DNA of 50,596 nucleotides from a virus, in IMG/VR virus record IMGVR_UViG_3300005663_000063, positions 1 to 50,596 of that record; one strand, given 5' to 3'. Each line of letters begins with the position of its first letter. Position 1 is the first letter of the stretch. The notes under the pieces were generated by a model. It saw nothing but the letters and a program-made list of their open reading frames with translations. It searched no databases and was not told the DNA's origin. This document shows positions 4,402 to 47,894 of the stretch, piece by piece. The position numbers were made by a program, and so were the translations under genes.

Positions 4402-4623
4402 TTAGCCACCTAATAATTGAGAGATACCCATACCAACACCACCACTACCGAGGACACCAAGTCCGATAAGGATACCCTTTAATCTACTTTGTTTATTCTC
4501 TACATCCCTTAGTCGCCCATTCATCTTCTCTAGGTGTTCTTCTTGGCGTTCAGTGGTGTCCTTAATAGCTTCCGTTCTCTCATCCAGACGAACAAGTAAC
4601 TCATCACGCTCTGCTGGTTTCAT
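4402..4623 (-). CDS. XhlA-like coiled-coil membrane protein, holin candidate
   Basis: A 73-residue protein. Residues about 5-48 form a charged coiled coil (RLDER, then heptad-like repeats). Residues about 50-70 form a Gly-rich hydrophobic segment. This is the layout of the XhlA (haemolysin/holin-associated) family found at the end of phage late operons. Its start overlaps the stop of the 30-codon gene upstream as ATGA. It is the last gene of the late region, where lysis genes are expected. No endolysin lies beside it. Confidence 0.6.
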   Translation of the reverse strand: MKPAERDELLVRLDERTEAIKDTTERQEEHLEKMNGRLRDVENKQSRLKGILIGLGVLGSGGVGMGISQLLGG

Positions 4624-36511: not shown

Positions 36512-36526
36512 CAATTGAATATGTGG

Positions 36527-36914
36527 CTTGCTGGTGTCCTGAAATAAGAGGATTAAATGTTGGGAGGCATCTGCAGATAAACTCCGTATCCGAGCCAGCA
36601 AGATTGCCAGTTTGCCCAATAGTGATGTTGGGCTTAGGAAGGACGAGGGATAAGGTCATCCTTGTCGGTGGCAAACTCCCTGTCTTTGACTGGCAGCCAG
36701 CCACCCCCCAACTCATTGGAGTGGTAGCAGTAATGAGGTACTCTGATCTACCGATTGGGGCTGGCAAAACCTGAGCCGAGGAGTAGCGTGCGCTGGGGAA
36801 GGCTACTACTAATGATTTGGAACGGGAGTAGGCTCAGGTTGGCTTTAGGTGGGGTGAACAAGGAAGGTGCTTTGTCTACCTTCTGCGTGGTGGGGAAGTA
36901 CACCAGCCCCACCT
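36527..36914 (+). ncRNA. Candidate structured RNA, about 390 nt
   Basis: No convincing protein gene is present here, but complementary arms follow each other and nest. Main pairs: CTTGCTGG 36527-36534 with 36595-36602; TGCCAGT 36605-36611 with 36689-36695, continued by TTGCC 36612-36616 with 36670-36674; GCCAG plus CCCCAA 36696-36711 with 36755-36765, with CTCATT 36712-36717 to AATGAG 36732-36737 inside; a ten-base arm AACCTGAGCC 36768-36777 with 36831-36840, enclosing AGTAGC 36782-36787 with 36802-36807; and AGGTGGGG 36847-36854 with 36907-36914, enclosing GAAGGTG 36863-36869 with 36877-36883 and GGTG 36889-36892 with 36901-36904. The stretch is also visibly GC-richer than the flanking genes. 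It matches none of the RNase P, tmRNA, group I or group II core motifs I could recall. It could be a free RNA or a leader for the gene at 36931. Confidence 0.6.
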
Positions 36915-36930
36915 GAGCTAAGGAGGAATA

Positions 36931-37056
36931 ATTAAGAAAGTAACAGCGCCACTCCAAGCTAAGATAGTAATTGTCTGCCCTACCTGTGGTGAAGTCATAG
37001 AGGTTAAAGTAGAAGGGGTATCTAATTATAAGGAGAATAATGAGAACACTGAGTGA
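36931..37056 (+). CDS. 41-residue zinc-knuckle-like peptide with a probable ATT start
   Basis: A strong AGGAGG (36921-36926) lies just after the structured RNA. Four bases later the frame opens with ATT; no ATG, GTG or TTG is available in frame near it. The peptide is protein-like (KVTAPLQAKIVIVCPTCGEV), with one Cys-x2-Cys. It overlaps the next gene by 17 bases. ATT is a rare start codon, known from infC. Alternatively this is a gene that lost its ATG. Confidence 0.5.
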   Translation: MKKVTAPLQAKIVIVCPTCGEVIEVKVEGVSNYKENNENTE

Positions 37057-39591: not shown

Positions 39592-39723
39592 ATGATTGTT
39601 CTAAGTTGTTCTGTTTGTTCCACTCTAGGCGTGAATATACCATTTCTTGTTCTAATCTGTGTTGTGTGTTCCTCTTGTTCTCTTTGTTCTGTCTGTTCTA
39701 GGAGTGGATATGGATTTAACTAA
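39592..39723 (+). CDS. Possible Cys/Ser-rich 43-residue peptide over the 9-bp array
   Basis: An ATG frame runs across the repeat array and ends in the ATPase start region. The peptide is hydrophobic then Cys-rich (CSVCS, CSSCSLCSVCS), with the 9-bp unit reading as Cys-Ser-x. A ribosome site is weak (GAAGAG). It overlaps the ATPase gene by 14 bases. This may only be a by-product of the array. Confidence 0.3.
   Translation: MIVLSCSVCSTLGVNIPFLVLICVVCSSCSLCSVCSRSGYGFN
39597..39699 (+). repeat. TGTTCT nine-base repeat array
   Basis: TGTTCT or TGTTCC starts at 39597, 39607, 39616, 39648, 39667, 39676, 39685 and 39694, mostly nine bases apart. The last four are in strict nine-base register. The array is in the gap before the ATPase gene. 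It could be a set of binding sites, such as an origin (iteron-like) or control element, or a coding repeat. Confidence 0.7.
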
Positions 39724-40597
39724 GGAAGCACTAAGGGCTTGGTGGATACAGACCACAGGTGAGAATCACTATAAGGCAGCCCTTGATGGGGATTTTAAGG
39801 TAAAGGATACTTTCTTTTATGACAAACTGCGTAAGTTAACCTTTGAGCTTGTGGCGGATAAAGTTATAACAAAGGTTCGCACCAAGAAGGATGGGATATA
39901 CCGCCTAGTGGATAAGGCAGATGAGGAGATAATGTGGTGGGAAGGGGAAGGCATAGATGATAGTAAGGTTAATCTCTTATTACCATTTGGATTGCATAAG
40001 GCAGTCTATGTACCACGCCCCGCCCTCATTCTTATATCGGGTGATACAAACGCTGGCAAGACAGCTATCGCCAATCAGATACTAAATATCAACCAAGAGA
40101 AGTTTGATGATATTCTGTTATTAATGACTGAGGGTTTGGATATGGTAAAGGGTAGGATGATGAACGCTATACCGAAATGTCCTATGCCACCCAAGTTCCG
40201 CACCTTCAGGAAGATGAACCACTTTGAGGATGACGTGCTTCCCAACGGGTTAACAGTAGTAGATTATCTAAGACCACCCAACCCTACATCCTTAATGTCT
40301 ATTGGCGAACCCTTAGAAGCAATTGCGGGAGTATTAAATAAGGGTACAGGGATAGCTGTAGTATGCCTTCAGAAGCCACGAGGCGAACGAGGGGAGGCTT
40401 TCGGGGGTATAATCACTCAATGGGACGCCTCTTTGGCTATGAGCATCCATACTACCGATACAAACTTCGTAAGCTATCTAAAACTCAATAAGATTAAGAA
40501 GCCCCTTATGTTGGATAAGGATTTATACAAGCTCAAGATACGGTTTAAAATATCACATGGAATACAACTGACAGAACTGGAGAAGGTTTATGAATAA
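39710..40597 (+). CDS. RecA-fold ATPase, helicase/replication candidate
   Basis: A 295-residue protein. Residues about 1-75 are a winged-helix-like N domain. The Walker A is GDTNAGKT (111-118), with a Walker B-type hydrophobic strand following (IAVVCLQ). The order fits DnaB/RepA/KaiC-like ATPases. It is the only replication-type gene seen. Start ATG 39710 behind AGGAG; upstream in-frame sequence belongs to the repeat array. The role may be helicase loading or replication initiation. Confidence 0.7.
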   Translation: MDLTKEALRAWWIQTTGENHYKAALDGDFKVKDTFFYDKLRKLTFELVADKVITKVRTKKDGIYRLVDKADEEIMWWEGEGIDDSKVNLLLPFGLHKAVYVPRPALILISGDTNAGKTAIANQILNINQEKFDDILLLMTEGLDMVKGRMMNAIPKCPMPPKFRTFRKMNHFEDDVLPNGLTVVDYLRPPNPTSLMSIGEPLEAIAGVLNKGTGIAVVCLQKPRGERGEAFGGIITQWDASLAMSIHTTDTNFVSYLKLNKIKKPLMLDKDLYKLKIRFKISHGIQLTELEKVYE

Positions 40598-44139: not shown

Positions 44140-44348
44140 TGCTCTGGTATCTTTCAGCCTTAGCCTTAATGTCTTACCCAATAGCGGAACTCAGTAGGGT
44201 TATAGTTATAGTGATAGTACGCTATCCCAATATCGCTATTGGAGCAGGGGAAGTTCCTCAGTCCGACTTTGTATGGGAGATTATATTGATGTGGATAGCT
44301 TACATTGTAGGAGCTGCTATACTAGCTTGGAGATTAAACAAAAAATGA
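44139..44348 (+). CDS. Two-helix membrane protein
   Basis: A 69-residue protein with hydrophobic stretches near both ends (LWYLSALALMSYPIAEL and IILMWIAYIVGAAILAW). It overlaps the radical SAM gene. It may be part of the set of small membrane proteins in the cassette. Confidence 0.6.
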   Translation: MLWYLSALALMSYPIAELSRVIVIVIVRYPNIAIGAGEVPQSDFVWEIILMWIAYIVGAAILAWRLNKK

Positions 44349-45709
44349 AACCAGTGTATTTCTTCAATCCGTCCTACGATGAGAGGAATATAAACTTCTA
44401 CAACCTCGGACTGATTAGTATTGCCTCTCATCTAAAAAGGAAGGGTATCCCTGCCTATGTTTATATGAACTACCTAGACGAAAGGCATACCAAGGACAAA
44501 GATTATGACCTTGTGTTGGAAGATGTATTAAAGGAGAACCCACAATATGTAGGGATTTCTTGTATGACAACACAATATATGGGGGCATTGGATTTAACCA
44601 AGAGGATTAAGGGGCTATCTGATGTTCCCGTTGTATGGGGCGGGCATCATGTTAATGCTTATGGGTGCAATGGGGCTGACTTAGGGGTAAGGGGTTGGGG
44701 GGAATTTAATGCAGAGAGGATTTATAATAATGCCCCACTATTTGTAAAGCGTGGAATACCAGCGAACCTTCCCCTAGATTTCTCTACTGTTATCAACTAT
44801 CAACCAGTAGAACGCCTGATGAGAGGCAGGATGGTCAAGCAGGCATCTATAATGACCTCTTATGGGTGTCCATATAAGTGCAGGTTCTGTGTTAATGCAA
44901 TAAAGGATAGCCAAGTTATCTATCGGGATATAAAGGCAGTGGTTCAAGAGATAAAGCAAGTCCTGAGTATGGGTGCTAACTCCATAGCTTTTTATGATGA
45001 GCTGTTCTGGGCAAAGCCTAAAAGGGTGGTTGACATAATAAAAAACCTAAAAGTTGAGGGTTTTAATTTTCCATGGTTGGCACTTGCAAGGATTGATAGT
45101 AGGCTGGAGGACTTAAAATATCTGGCAAGCAACGGTTGTGAGGAGATACACTTTGGAGTGGAGTCAGGCTCTCAGAGAATGATAGATGAGTGTATCAACA
45201 AGAGGATTAAGATAAAGGATGTTATCCCTGTTCTGCAAAGAGTATTGGATGCAGACATTATGCCCAGGGCTTCGTTCATATTTGGTATGCCTGGGGAGAC
45301 AATGGATGATGTATCACAAACCATTCACCTGATAATGGAAATGGCAGAGAGGTTTGGTAATCGGTTCGTGATAAACGCTTTCTTCTTCTATCCTATACCC
45401 AACACTCCTATGACAGACGAGGCGTTTAAAGGATTGAGTGCTCAGGATTGTATTGATGCAGCAAGACTCTCAGTCCATCCCTATAAACTCTTTGAACACT
45501 TTGATGCATATGACTGGTTGCCTGATAAGAAGTTCTTTGCTGAGTGTTGGTATATAGCAAGGGTTATCTCAGAGATATGTGCTCCTTATAAATATTACGA
45601 AGGTTATAAGCCAGAGTTCGGGGGGATGTCAGTATCTGATGGGACTTATAATGAATTGAATAATAGTGAACTAGCAAAGAAATGGCTAGATAAAGTAAGG
45701 GGGTTTTGA
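44345..45709 (+). CDS. B12-binding-type radical SAM enzyme in the sugar cassette
   Basis: A 454-residue protein. The first 150 residues are a Rossmann-like B12-type domain (LGLISIASHLKRKG, YVGISCMTTQY, VPVVWGGHHVNAYG). The radical SAM motif is at Cys175, Cys179 and Cys182 (SYGCPYKCRFC). The C-terminal part has GMPGETMDD and other family blocks. The classical cobalamin His motif is unclear. The ATG at 44345 overlaps the previous stop (ATGA). It starts the sugar cassette and may methylate or rearrange a sugar or lipid; substrate unknown. Confidence 0.85.
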   Translation: MKPVYFFNPSYDERNINFYNLGLISIASHLKRKGIPAYVYMNYLDERHTKDKDYDLVLEDVLKENPQYVGISCMTTQYMGALDLTKRIKGLSDVPVVWGGHHVNAYGCNGADLGVRGWGEFNAERIYNNAPLFVKRGIPANLPLDFSTVINYQPVERLMRGRMVKQASIMTSYGCPYKCRFCVNAIKDSQVIYRDIKAVVQEIKQVLSMGANSIAFYDELFWAKPKRVVDIIKNLKVEGFNFPWLALARIDSRLEDLKYLASNGCEEIHFGVESGSQRMIDECINKRIKIKDVIPVLQRVLDADIMPRASFIFGMPGETMDDVSQTIHLIMEMAERFGNRFVINAFFFYPIPNTPMTDEAFKGLSAQDCIDAARLSVHPYKLFEHFDAYDWLPDKKFFAECWYIARVISEICAPYKYYEGYKPEFGGMSVSDGTYNELNNSELAKKWLDKVRGF

Positions 45710-46074: not shown

Positions 46075-46300
46075 AAGGAGGGGGAAAATAACTGATGTTG
46101 AGAAATCTGAAAGGTTAAGGATAAAATGCCTCATTGTATGGGGCATCATAGGCATCTTGATGCTAATTTCATTTGTAGTATTTAATAGCTTTCTTGAGGG
46201 CAAGTCTATGCGTGAATTTCCTGCTAACGTTGCTGGTGCTTTTCTAATGCTTTGGATGCTTACAGGTATTGGATTATCAGGTGGTGGGGGGGGTATGTAA
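46049..46300 (+). CDS. Two-helix membrane protein, GTG start
   Basis: An 83-residue protein with two hydrophobic stretches (LIVWGIIGILMLISFVVF and VAGAFLMLWMLTGIGL) and a Gly-rich tail. GGAGG stands before the GTG at 46049, which overlaps the end of the cupin gene. Function unknown. Confidence 0.6.
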   Translation: MSTKKIINKRRGKITDVEKSERLRIKCLIVWGIIGILMLISFVVFNSFLEGKSMREFPANVAGAFLMLWMLTGIGLSGGGGGM

Positions 46301-46304
46301 TAAT

Positions 46305-47894
46305 ATGAATAAATTAGCTATTCTTGTAACAGGAACATATAGAGAGATAGACTTCCTGTTGGATGTCTTTCCACAGATAACTAAAGGGATAGACCACGAC
46401 ATTTATGTTGTTTTAAGGCATACCGCTGGAGAGTTAAGTAGGCTTGGGTTAAAGGAACAGGACTTCACCCTTCCGAAAGGTGGGGATAATGTCTTTATGT
46501 GTGAGTTACCCAGTATGGATAAAGATGAAGCCCACTCTCGTTACCTGATACCAGTTGGGCCGACAGATAACGATAGGGAATGTGCTATGCTCAGTATGTT
46601 TCATGGAGTGTTCACTGCCATCTCTATGATGAAAGCCTCTCTTAGAAATTACACCTATGTTATGAAGACACGGACAGATTATCTCCCCCCAATGTCTATA
46701 CCTGAGATGATTGAGGCTCACACAAAGACGGGGAAGATTATCGTTGATGGGTGTGCTAACTGGCACCATCGCTACCCCGATAGGGGCGATATTCATTGGC
46801 AAGGTTCGTTGAATGATATATTTTGCTTTACCACCTATGATGGGTTTCTTAAACTGTGGGATTTTGAGGACGAACTCAGCAAGTATTGGACAGGCATACC
46901 AGAAACGACTCTATTCAGGGTGGCTATGAAAAGGTTTCTGGGTGATGAGATGCAGTCCCCTCGCAAGAACGAGACTTTCCTGAAGAAGTATTTTACTTGG
47001 GATGATAATGATACCAAGCAATCCTTCCACGTTCTAAGAAGAAAAGGGGATGGGTTGCCCAAGATGGGTGAGGCAACCTTTTTCAAGGGGGATGAGGTTG
47101 TTAAATACTTCGTCGATAAAGAGAAGGTTAAGGGTAGAGTAGAACGTGCTATACTATTGAGCGGGTTTGTCCCTGAACCAGTAAAAGTATCGGATAACTT
47201 TTTTACCTACAAGTATGTAGGGGGGAAGTTGCTTTCAGATACGGATGTGGATACCTTTACCGAGTTCCTTGAGTTTATGAAGAGGAATATATGGGTTGGC
47301 AATTACCACAGTATCAGGAAAGCCTGTGAAGAGTTTTACATTACTAAGACAGATGAGCGCATTAAATTATTTAGGGAAAAGACTGGGATTATAGATAAAA
47401 AGGAGGATATTAACGGTGTAGAAGTACCCTCCATAGAAGATACGCTGGAAAACATAGATTTGAAGTGGCTGTGTGATGGGATACCCGCCATCATACACGG
47501 AGACCCACAACCAGAGAATGTGATTGTAACTGAGGATGGGTTTTCTCTACTAGATTGGCGTGAGGACTTTGGGGGACTACCCTATGGTGATGTCTATTAT
47601 GATTTAGCCAAGATTTACCACGCCCTCTGGGTAGCAGGGGAGATAATCCGCCAAGAGAGATACACTATTAAGGAAGACCCCATAGAATATACCATAGATT
47701 TCAAAGATAACCTAATGGAGTTCAAGGATGTGATGGAGAAGTTTATCGCAGATAATGGATATGACCTATACAAAGTTAAAGTCTTATCAGCACTCATTTA
47801 TCTAAACATAGCACCCTTACATCACGAACCTTACAATAAATTCCTTTACTACTTTGGGAAGAAATATCTTTATGAGTTACTGGAGGAGAAATGA
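46305..47894 (+). CDS. Glycosyltransferase-kinase fusion
   Basis: A 529-residue two-domain protein. Residues about 1-245 look like a WavE/GT-A-type glycosyltransferase, with an RTD site (KTRTD 121-125). Residues about 255-529 are an aminoglycoside-phosphotransferase/choline-kinase fold: HGD 398-400, Asn405 and Asp417 (LLDWRED). The kinase could phosphorylate a sugar or lipid head, and the transferase could add a sugar. The pair is unusual in a phage. ATG at 46305 follows a run of G. Confidence 0.75.
   Translation: MNKLAILVTGTYREIDFLLDVFPQITKGIDHDIYVVLRHTAGELSRLGLKEQDFTLPKGGDNVFMCELPSMDKDEAHSRYLIPVGPTDNDRECAMLSMFHGVFTAISMMKASLRNYTYVMKTRTDYLPPMSIPEMIEAHTKTGKIIVDGCANWHHRYPDRGDIHWQGSLNDIFCFTTYDGFLKLWDFEDELSKYWTGIPETTLFRVAMKRFLGDEMQSPRKNETFLKKYFTWDDNDTKQSFHVLRRKGDGLPKMGEATFFKGDEVVKYFVDKEKVKGRVERAILLSGFVPEPVKVSDNFFTYKYVGGKLLSDTDVDTFTEFLEFMKRNIWVGNYHSIRKACEEFYITKTDERIKLFREKTGIIDKKEDINGVEVPSIEDTLENIDLKWLCDGIPAIIHGDPQPENVIVTEDGFSLLDWREDFGGLPYGDVYYDLAKIYHALWVAGEIIRQERYTIKEDPIEYTIDFKDNLMEFKDVMEKFIADNGYDLYKVKVLSALIYLNIAPLHHEPYNKFLYYFGKKYLYELLEEK

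Follow-up and report, generated by a model that had tools for sequence, protein, structure and literature searches.

A five-domain array in a virus genome and a virus-borne family of putative noncoding RNA modules gained and lost unit by unit

The closest described cases to the locus presented here are STAXI and the ROOL and GOLLD RNAs. In STAXI (RF01728), an Enterobacteriales motif of unknown function, one pseudoknot is repeated, and the tandem units lie near genes for single-strand DNA binding, recombination or antirestriction (PMC2864571). Phages and prophages carry ROOL and GOLLD, large and structured noncoding RNAs that often lie by tRNA islands and are likewise of unknown function; these are single molecules, and they assemble into cages (PMC12286853). 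A more distant analogy is offered by the type III antitoxins, which consist of RNA repeats arranged in tandem, bind the toxin and in some cases occur in phages (PMC8860590).

Comparison with these systems reveals both shared and distinct features. As in STAXI, the arrays described here consist of tandem structured units beside DNA-manipulation genes, but STAXI repeats a single pseudoknot, whereas these arrays combine four module types, occur in phages, and have no supported pseudoknot in the first module (M1). ROOL and GOLLD are single molecules; here there is a row of separable domains, variable in number. With type III antitoxin RNAs the arrays share tandem small folded RNAs, some phage-borne, but antitoxin repeats would be expected to be short and near-identical, whereas the array modules differ in sequence and size and have no toxin gene alongside. 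Phage tRNA islands also comprise tandem, nearly abutting, tRNA-sized RNA units that are gained and lost, and some arrays hold tRNA or tRNA-Leu-like genes; M1 to M4 differ in having no match to the tRNA model and no recognisable anticodon or T arm. By the tests made, the array would belong to neither STAXI nor ROOL/GOLLD. The STAXI model matched nothing in the window (the whole stretch of DNA analysed, 50,596 nucleotides) or in three family records, its one 10-bit match in a metagenome-assembled genome (MAG) being a chance one, and no family of Rfam 15, GOLLD, ROOL, OLE and HEARO included, scored above its gathering cut-off in the whole window or in ten family loci. Searched at E 10, the array region gave no match and there was one irrelevant weak match outside it; at E 5, eight loci gave two weak snoRNA matches only, and in L286 and L283 a true tRNA-Met was the only Rfam match. 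An earlier note on this DNA, made from its letters alone, had proposed a comparison with Rfam for a possibly new RNA, and the outcome is the one that novelty needs; the family appears to be uncatalogued within Rfam 15 and the open-access literature, and unpublished or subscription descriptions are possible. Resemblances to an HDV-like ribozyme, a CRISPR-repeat mimic and Y RNA were considered on the strength of single shared motifs, and topology or Rfam gave them no support.

The window corresponds to a 50.6-kb virus record with ends that are repeats of one another, and the array fills a gap (36512-36930) in its rightward early region. As the earlier note had observed, this gap contains no good gene, its ORFs being short (83 and 53 aa) and without a homologous frame. 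As a whole, 36527-36914 folds at -152.6 kcal/mol (z -2.98, with 2 of 100 shuffles as good), a stability equalled by none of 101 sampled 388-nt stretches of the window, and its GC content, which the note had described as raised, is at 52.8% indeed the window maximum for that length (0 of 1005 stretches match). Both of the structures that the note had singled out are real: the ten-base arms AACCTGAGCC and GGCTCAGGTT that close module D (Table 1) are exact complements, and the three-way unit at 36847-36914 closes around two inner hairpins (z -3.05, a value matched by 0 of 200 shuffles). It had also seen nested and ordered helices within what might be a new, ornate phage RNA of about 390 nt. The named helices exist, and the element is phage-borne, structured and without an Rfam match, but its modules are exchangeable members of an array and not parts of a single nested molecule; they form five closed domains at about 36527-36602, 36605-36694, 36696-36765, 36768-36840 and 36847-36914 (fold z, in order, of -2.1, -5.1, -1.4, -2.3 and -3.1). 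The opposite strand also folds strongly (z -4.4), as long perfect stems would lead one to expect, and the strand is therefore not given by folding alone; its assignment depends on the orientation of the genes, on the units that stand alone and on a U-G pair that is nearly invariant. Elsewhere, the early region encodes a B12-binding radical SAM protein and an APH-like kinase domain protein (44273-45709 and 46269-47894).

Table 1. Features of the array and its immediate flanks, in window coordinates
Feature	Position	Strand	Detail
Upstream gene, 149 aa	36062..36511	+	ends 18 nt before GCTGG of M1
Module M1	36525..36604	+	closing helix 36527-36534 (CUUGCUGG) / 36595-36602 (CCAGCAAG)
Module B, M2-like	36605..36694	+	closing helix 36606-36612 / 36688-36694
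Module C, type M2	36693..36768	+	closing helix 36696-36702 (GCCAGCC) / 36759-36765 (GGCUGGC)
Module D, type M3	36767..36841	+	closing helix 36768-36777 / 36831-36840; conserved CCGAGG and GUA adjoining
Module E, type M4	36845..36916	+	closing helix 36847-36854 (AGGUGGGG) / 36907-36914 (CCCCACCU)
Ribosome-binding site AAGGAGG	36920-36926	+	directly after array
41-aa zinc-ribbon-like ORF	36931-37056	+	probable ATT start; strong ribosome-binding site

The window M1 carries a conserved U36535-G36594 wobble, GUGUCC after its 5' arm and CCGA before its 3' arm, and is scored at E 7e-13 by covariance model R1, the training set of which includes the window copy. The same holds for module C, matched by model R2 at E 2e-4 with the window copy in training. 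Module B resembles M2 by inspection alone, its 5' arm UGCCAGU leading directly into a hairpin; it was not reported when the window was searched with R2, and it folds with a z of -5.13 (0 of 200 shuffles). Model R3, built without the window, matches module D at E 4.6e-9 as its sole significant match there, and also recovers the modules of L139 and L183. Module E has the conserved motifs GGGGUGAA and CACCAGCCCC, and its arm motifs are identical in L145 and near-identical in L153. The 149-aa upstream gene has no family match. Inspection had suggested an SSB/OB-fold identity for the upstream genes; Pfam and PHROGs gave no support and the AlphaFold model was unusable (pLDDT 40).

Homologues were sought by gene synteny, DNA patterns and covariance models. 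The single IMG/VR relative of the upstream gene (L004), found without using the RNA, is followed shortly downstream, with one small ORF between, by GCTAGTGTCCTGAA...GACCGAGCCAGC, the window counterpart being GCTGGTGTCCTGAA...ATCCGAGCCAGC; similarly, the primase-like gene located 3 kb downstream led, again without the RNA, to a relative in L083, which carries the M1 arms CTTGCTTGCTGGTGTCC...GCCGAGCCAGCAAGC. The window's primase-like gene (39659-40597) has relatives in Methanosarcina virus MetMV and in array-bearing phages, and its relative in a Methanomicrobiales virus is annotated as DNA primase. An alignment search with the upstream protein gave no new genome. A pattern of shared M1 parts found 71 viral stretches, about half of them chance coding matches; the remainder share, beyond the pattern itself, an extension of the stem, the (A)TCGG(Y)/(R)CCGA pairing and often a second module. 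New real members found with the 3' half of M1 only have the 5' arm CTTGCTGG..GT upstream, and a scan anchored on M2 gave 10 further contigs with an M1 model match, mostly immediately upstream. A DNA pattern from the window arm and a first motif pattern were abandoned, their matches being nearly all chance or coding and L004 alone real. About 59 distinct M1 copies result (40 in alignment A3, 10 from the M2-anchored scan, 8 from the 3'-half scan and 1 more in a MAG), and 37 of 42 whole records contain one copy, the other five two.

Only trivial matches were returned from 50,697 cultured-phage records, queried with two of the fullest arrays, and from 72,556 plasmids, queried with one. Among 84,980 species genomes, searched at exact-pattern sensitivity, the array occurs in one Dehalococcoidia MAG only (L183); the scan of genome contigs gave 55 matches, of which 54 were chance coding matches and L183 was real, and the covariance model recovered a second M1 in this MAG. 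No further trusted member emerged from 393 genomes of the class, and one match (G306, E 4e-5), which lacks every conserved motif, was left out of the count. Since viral contigs are often binned wrongly, a Dehalococcoidia host is a lead rather than a result.

Across the family, four module types recur in the constant order M1, M2, M3, M4, separated by gaps of a few nucleotides. Any module can be absent: the window has M1, an M2-like unit, M2, M3 and M4, the fullest sets elsewhere are those of L129, L139 and L183, and other phages hold subsets, down to a single module. One downstream gene is found behind M1 alone in L125 and behind M1-M2 in L130. The consensus is gcuuGCUGGU-GUCC...UCGGY...RCCGA-GCCAGCaagc for M1, UGCCAGCYA-CCCGAAAGGG...CUACURGCUGGCA for M2, GCCUGAGCC-GAGG...GUAGGCUCAGGC for M3 and GUGGGGUGAA...CACCAGCCCCAC for M4. 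Modules measure 60-145 nt and differ from each other in sequence; conserved nucleotides gather at the foot, that is, the closing stem and the junction just inside it, and the distal arms vary freely. An H-type pseudoknot in M1, pairing GUCC with the GG of GGNGAA, was considered and rejected, the extension pairs performing no better than permutation and support being limited to two conserved pairs. More types probably exist. Extra closed units outside M1-M4 are seen in L087 (for example GATGCTG...CAGCATC), L109, L241, L257 and L265.

The pairing evidence is comparative. In the M1 alignment A3 (40 sequences), 87.4% of cells are paired, against 20-43% with slid partners, and 47 cells are changed on both sides, where shuffles average 23.5 and none of 500 reaches 47. 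The search pattern itself largely dictated columns 6-15 and 109-116, and the evidence for M1 therefore comes from the outer stem pairs (columns 1-5) and from pair 58/106, which varies between U-A, C-G and A-U. The M2 alignment A4 (32 sequences) is 87.2% paired, against 20-39% when slid, with 25 double changes (0 of 500 shuffles). For M4, compensatory changes among 19 copies beat permutation at closing pairs 2 to 4 (p 0.0012, <0.0002 and 0.012), and for M3 the closing stem of L246 exchanges C-G for U-A (CCTGAG/CTCAGG to CTTGAG/CTCAAG). The U-G pair adjoining the M1 stem becomes C-G in L300. At inner pairs, G-U exceeds A-C by 13 to 9 in M1 and 8 to 3 in M2, a small excess that makes a weak test of strand. 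A reading frame in M1 is excluded because its lengths fall evenly into the three classes modulo 3 (15/18/17) and 98 of 150 frames contain stops. The earlier note had set homologues that keep a frame against its structural reading; they keep the pairs and not the frame. We consider it close to certain that the modules form a structured RNA family.

In our proposed mechanism, the modules would be transcribed within the early polycistronic RNA or from a promoter of their own, would be stable or be cut out as tRNA-sized pieces, and would act in trans, most likely by offering a host or phage protein a binding platform or a decoy. Different module types might engage different partners, given conserved feet and variable distal arms. 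The reading as a whole, a five-domain noncoding RNA array from a virus-borne family with unit-wise gain and loss, its modules being putative trans-acting platforms or decoys, we regard as evenly balanced.

Chief among the rivals is an intercistronic element acting in cis, in which the modules fold within polycistronic mRNA and control its cutting, stability, read-through or the translation of the next gene. We rate this as a serious minority possibility. In most phages the array sits inside an operon, between co-oriented genes and on their strand, mostly just before a ribosome-binding site, where a cis element would fit equally. In 36 of 50 cases M1 begins 3-54 nt after the stop codon of an ORF of 45 or more codons on its own strand, and the last module often lies within about 25 nt of the ribosome-binding site (L004, L108, L125 and the window). 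This position also lends some weak support to the earlier note's suggestion of a leader. However, the flanking genes differ widely: those recognisable upstream are ERF, RecT and a head maturation protease, those downstream include PD-(D/E)XK exonucleases (four), HNH, MazG and the terminase small subunit, and a comparison of upstream and downstream neighbours gave no protein partner common to all arrays. Promoter-proximal placement would be expected of nut- and put-type antiterminators; in the window, several or even many genes of the rightward early region come before the array. M2 can, moreover, stand alone. In L264:683-830 and in L257 (minus strand, 4427-4519) it has a near-consensus sigma-70 promoter (TTGACA-17-TATGAT) just upstream and, behind it, a hairpin capped by GAAA that leads into a T-rich tail. 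The M2 units of L245 and L247 run into intrinsic 14-pair terminators; such terminated units lead into no gene, which counts against a leader as much as against a cis element. At one of 44 loci, an Acb2/Tad1 hairpin domain, as known from anti-CBASS and anti-Thoeris proteins, is present in the first protein encoded behind the array.

It is unlikely that the arrays are decayed or remodelled tRNA islands, whose modules would derive from phage tRNA genes, keep acceptor-like closing stems and be either tRNA mimics or non-functional. Such a descent is suggested by L286:5140-5522, where two degenerate tRNA-Leu-like elements (GCTTGCTAGTGGCGGAAGATAGACGC..., CAGCTTGCTGGTGGCGGAAT...) precede M1 and a true tRNA-Met begins 4 nt after it, by tRNA-Leu-like elements near M1 in L112, L137, L140 and L183, of which that of L137 occupies the M4 slot, and by the M1 start GCUUGCUGGUG, which resembles the elements of L183 and L286. 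Yet the tRNA model and ARAGORN called neighbouring elements only and no module, M1-M4 of the window giving no tRNA signal at E 10, and modules so precisely conserved and covarying do not look like the product of mere decay.

Slightly less probable still is that the modules form in single-stranded DNA displaced during replication or recombination, as was also considered for the STAXI motif (PMC2864571). Recombination genes are frequent neighbours (ERF, RecT, PD-(D/E)XK exonuclease and HNH) and the stems pair equally well as DNA, but the near-invariant T-G pair adjoining the M1 stem and some G-T pairs, the promoter and terminators of M2 units, and the position of some arrays beside structural genes or in tRNA islands all count against this reading. 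Finally, phage-borne decoys of the type III toxin-antitoxin kind, directed against host endoribonuclease toxins, would also be tandem small folded units gained and lost, the type III antitoxins being toxin-binding tandem repeats (PMC8860590), but this is very improbable: the modules are too large and too different to be near-identical repeats, the M1 pseudoknot is unsupported, and 44 downstream proteins compared with PADLOC and Pfam include no ToxN/AbiQ-type endoribonuclease, the only nucleases being of the Cas4/PD-(D/E)XK and HNH kind.

Returning to trans-acting platforms or decoys, we lean slightly towards action in trans, since units can stand alone, arrays can be set in tRNA islands and no neighbour is constant. 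A role as decoy or adaptor is tentative, a commitment rather than a result, and since no partner gene accompanies every array it names no target. More speculatively still, the array could be an expandable viral RNA cassette of exchangeable folded modules, each type for a different host factor, from which phages assemble the set they need; if so, it would be the RNA counterpart of an anti-defence island or a tRNA island. The modules add what appears to be an uncatalogued structured RNA family to the phages of uncultured hosts, and searches for it in other genomes can begin straight away with the covarying alignments and the covariance models. It is unusual for RNA domains to be gained and lost as units at a single locus, and this allows function to be tested one module at a time; the family may also illuminate why phages retain large RNAs of unknown function beside their tRNA islands.
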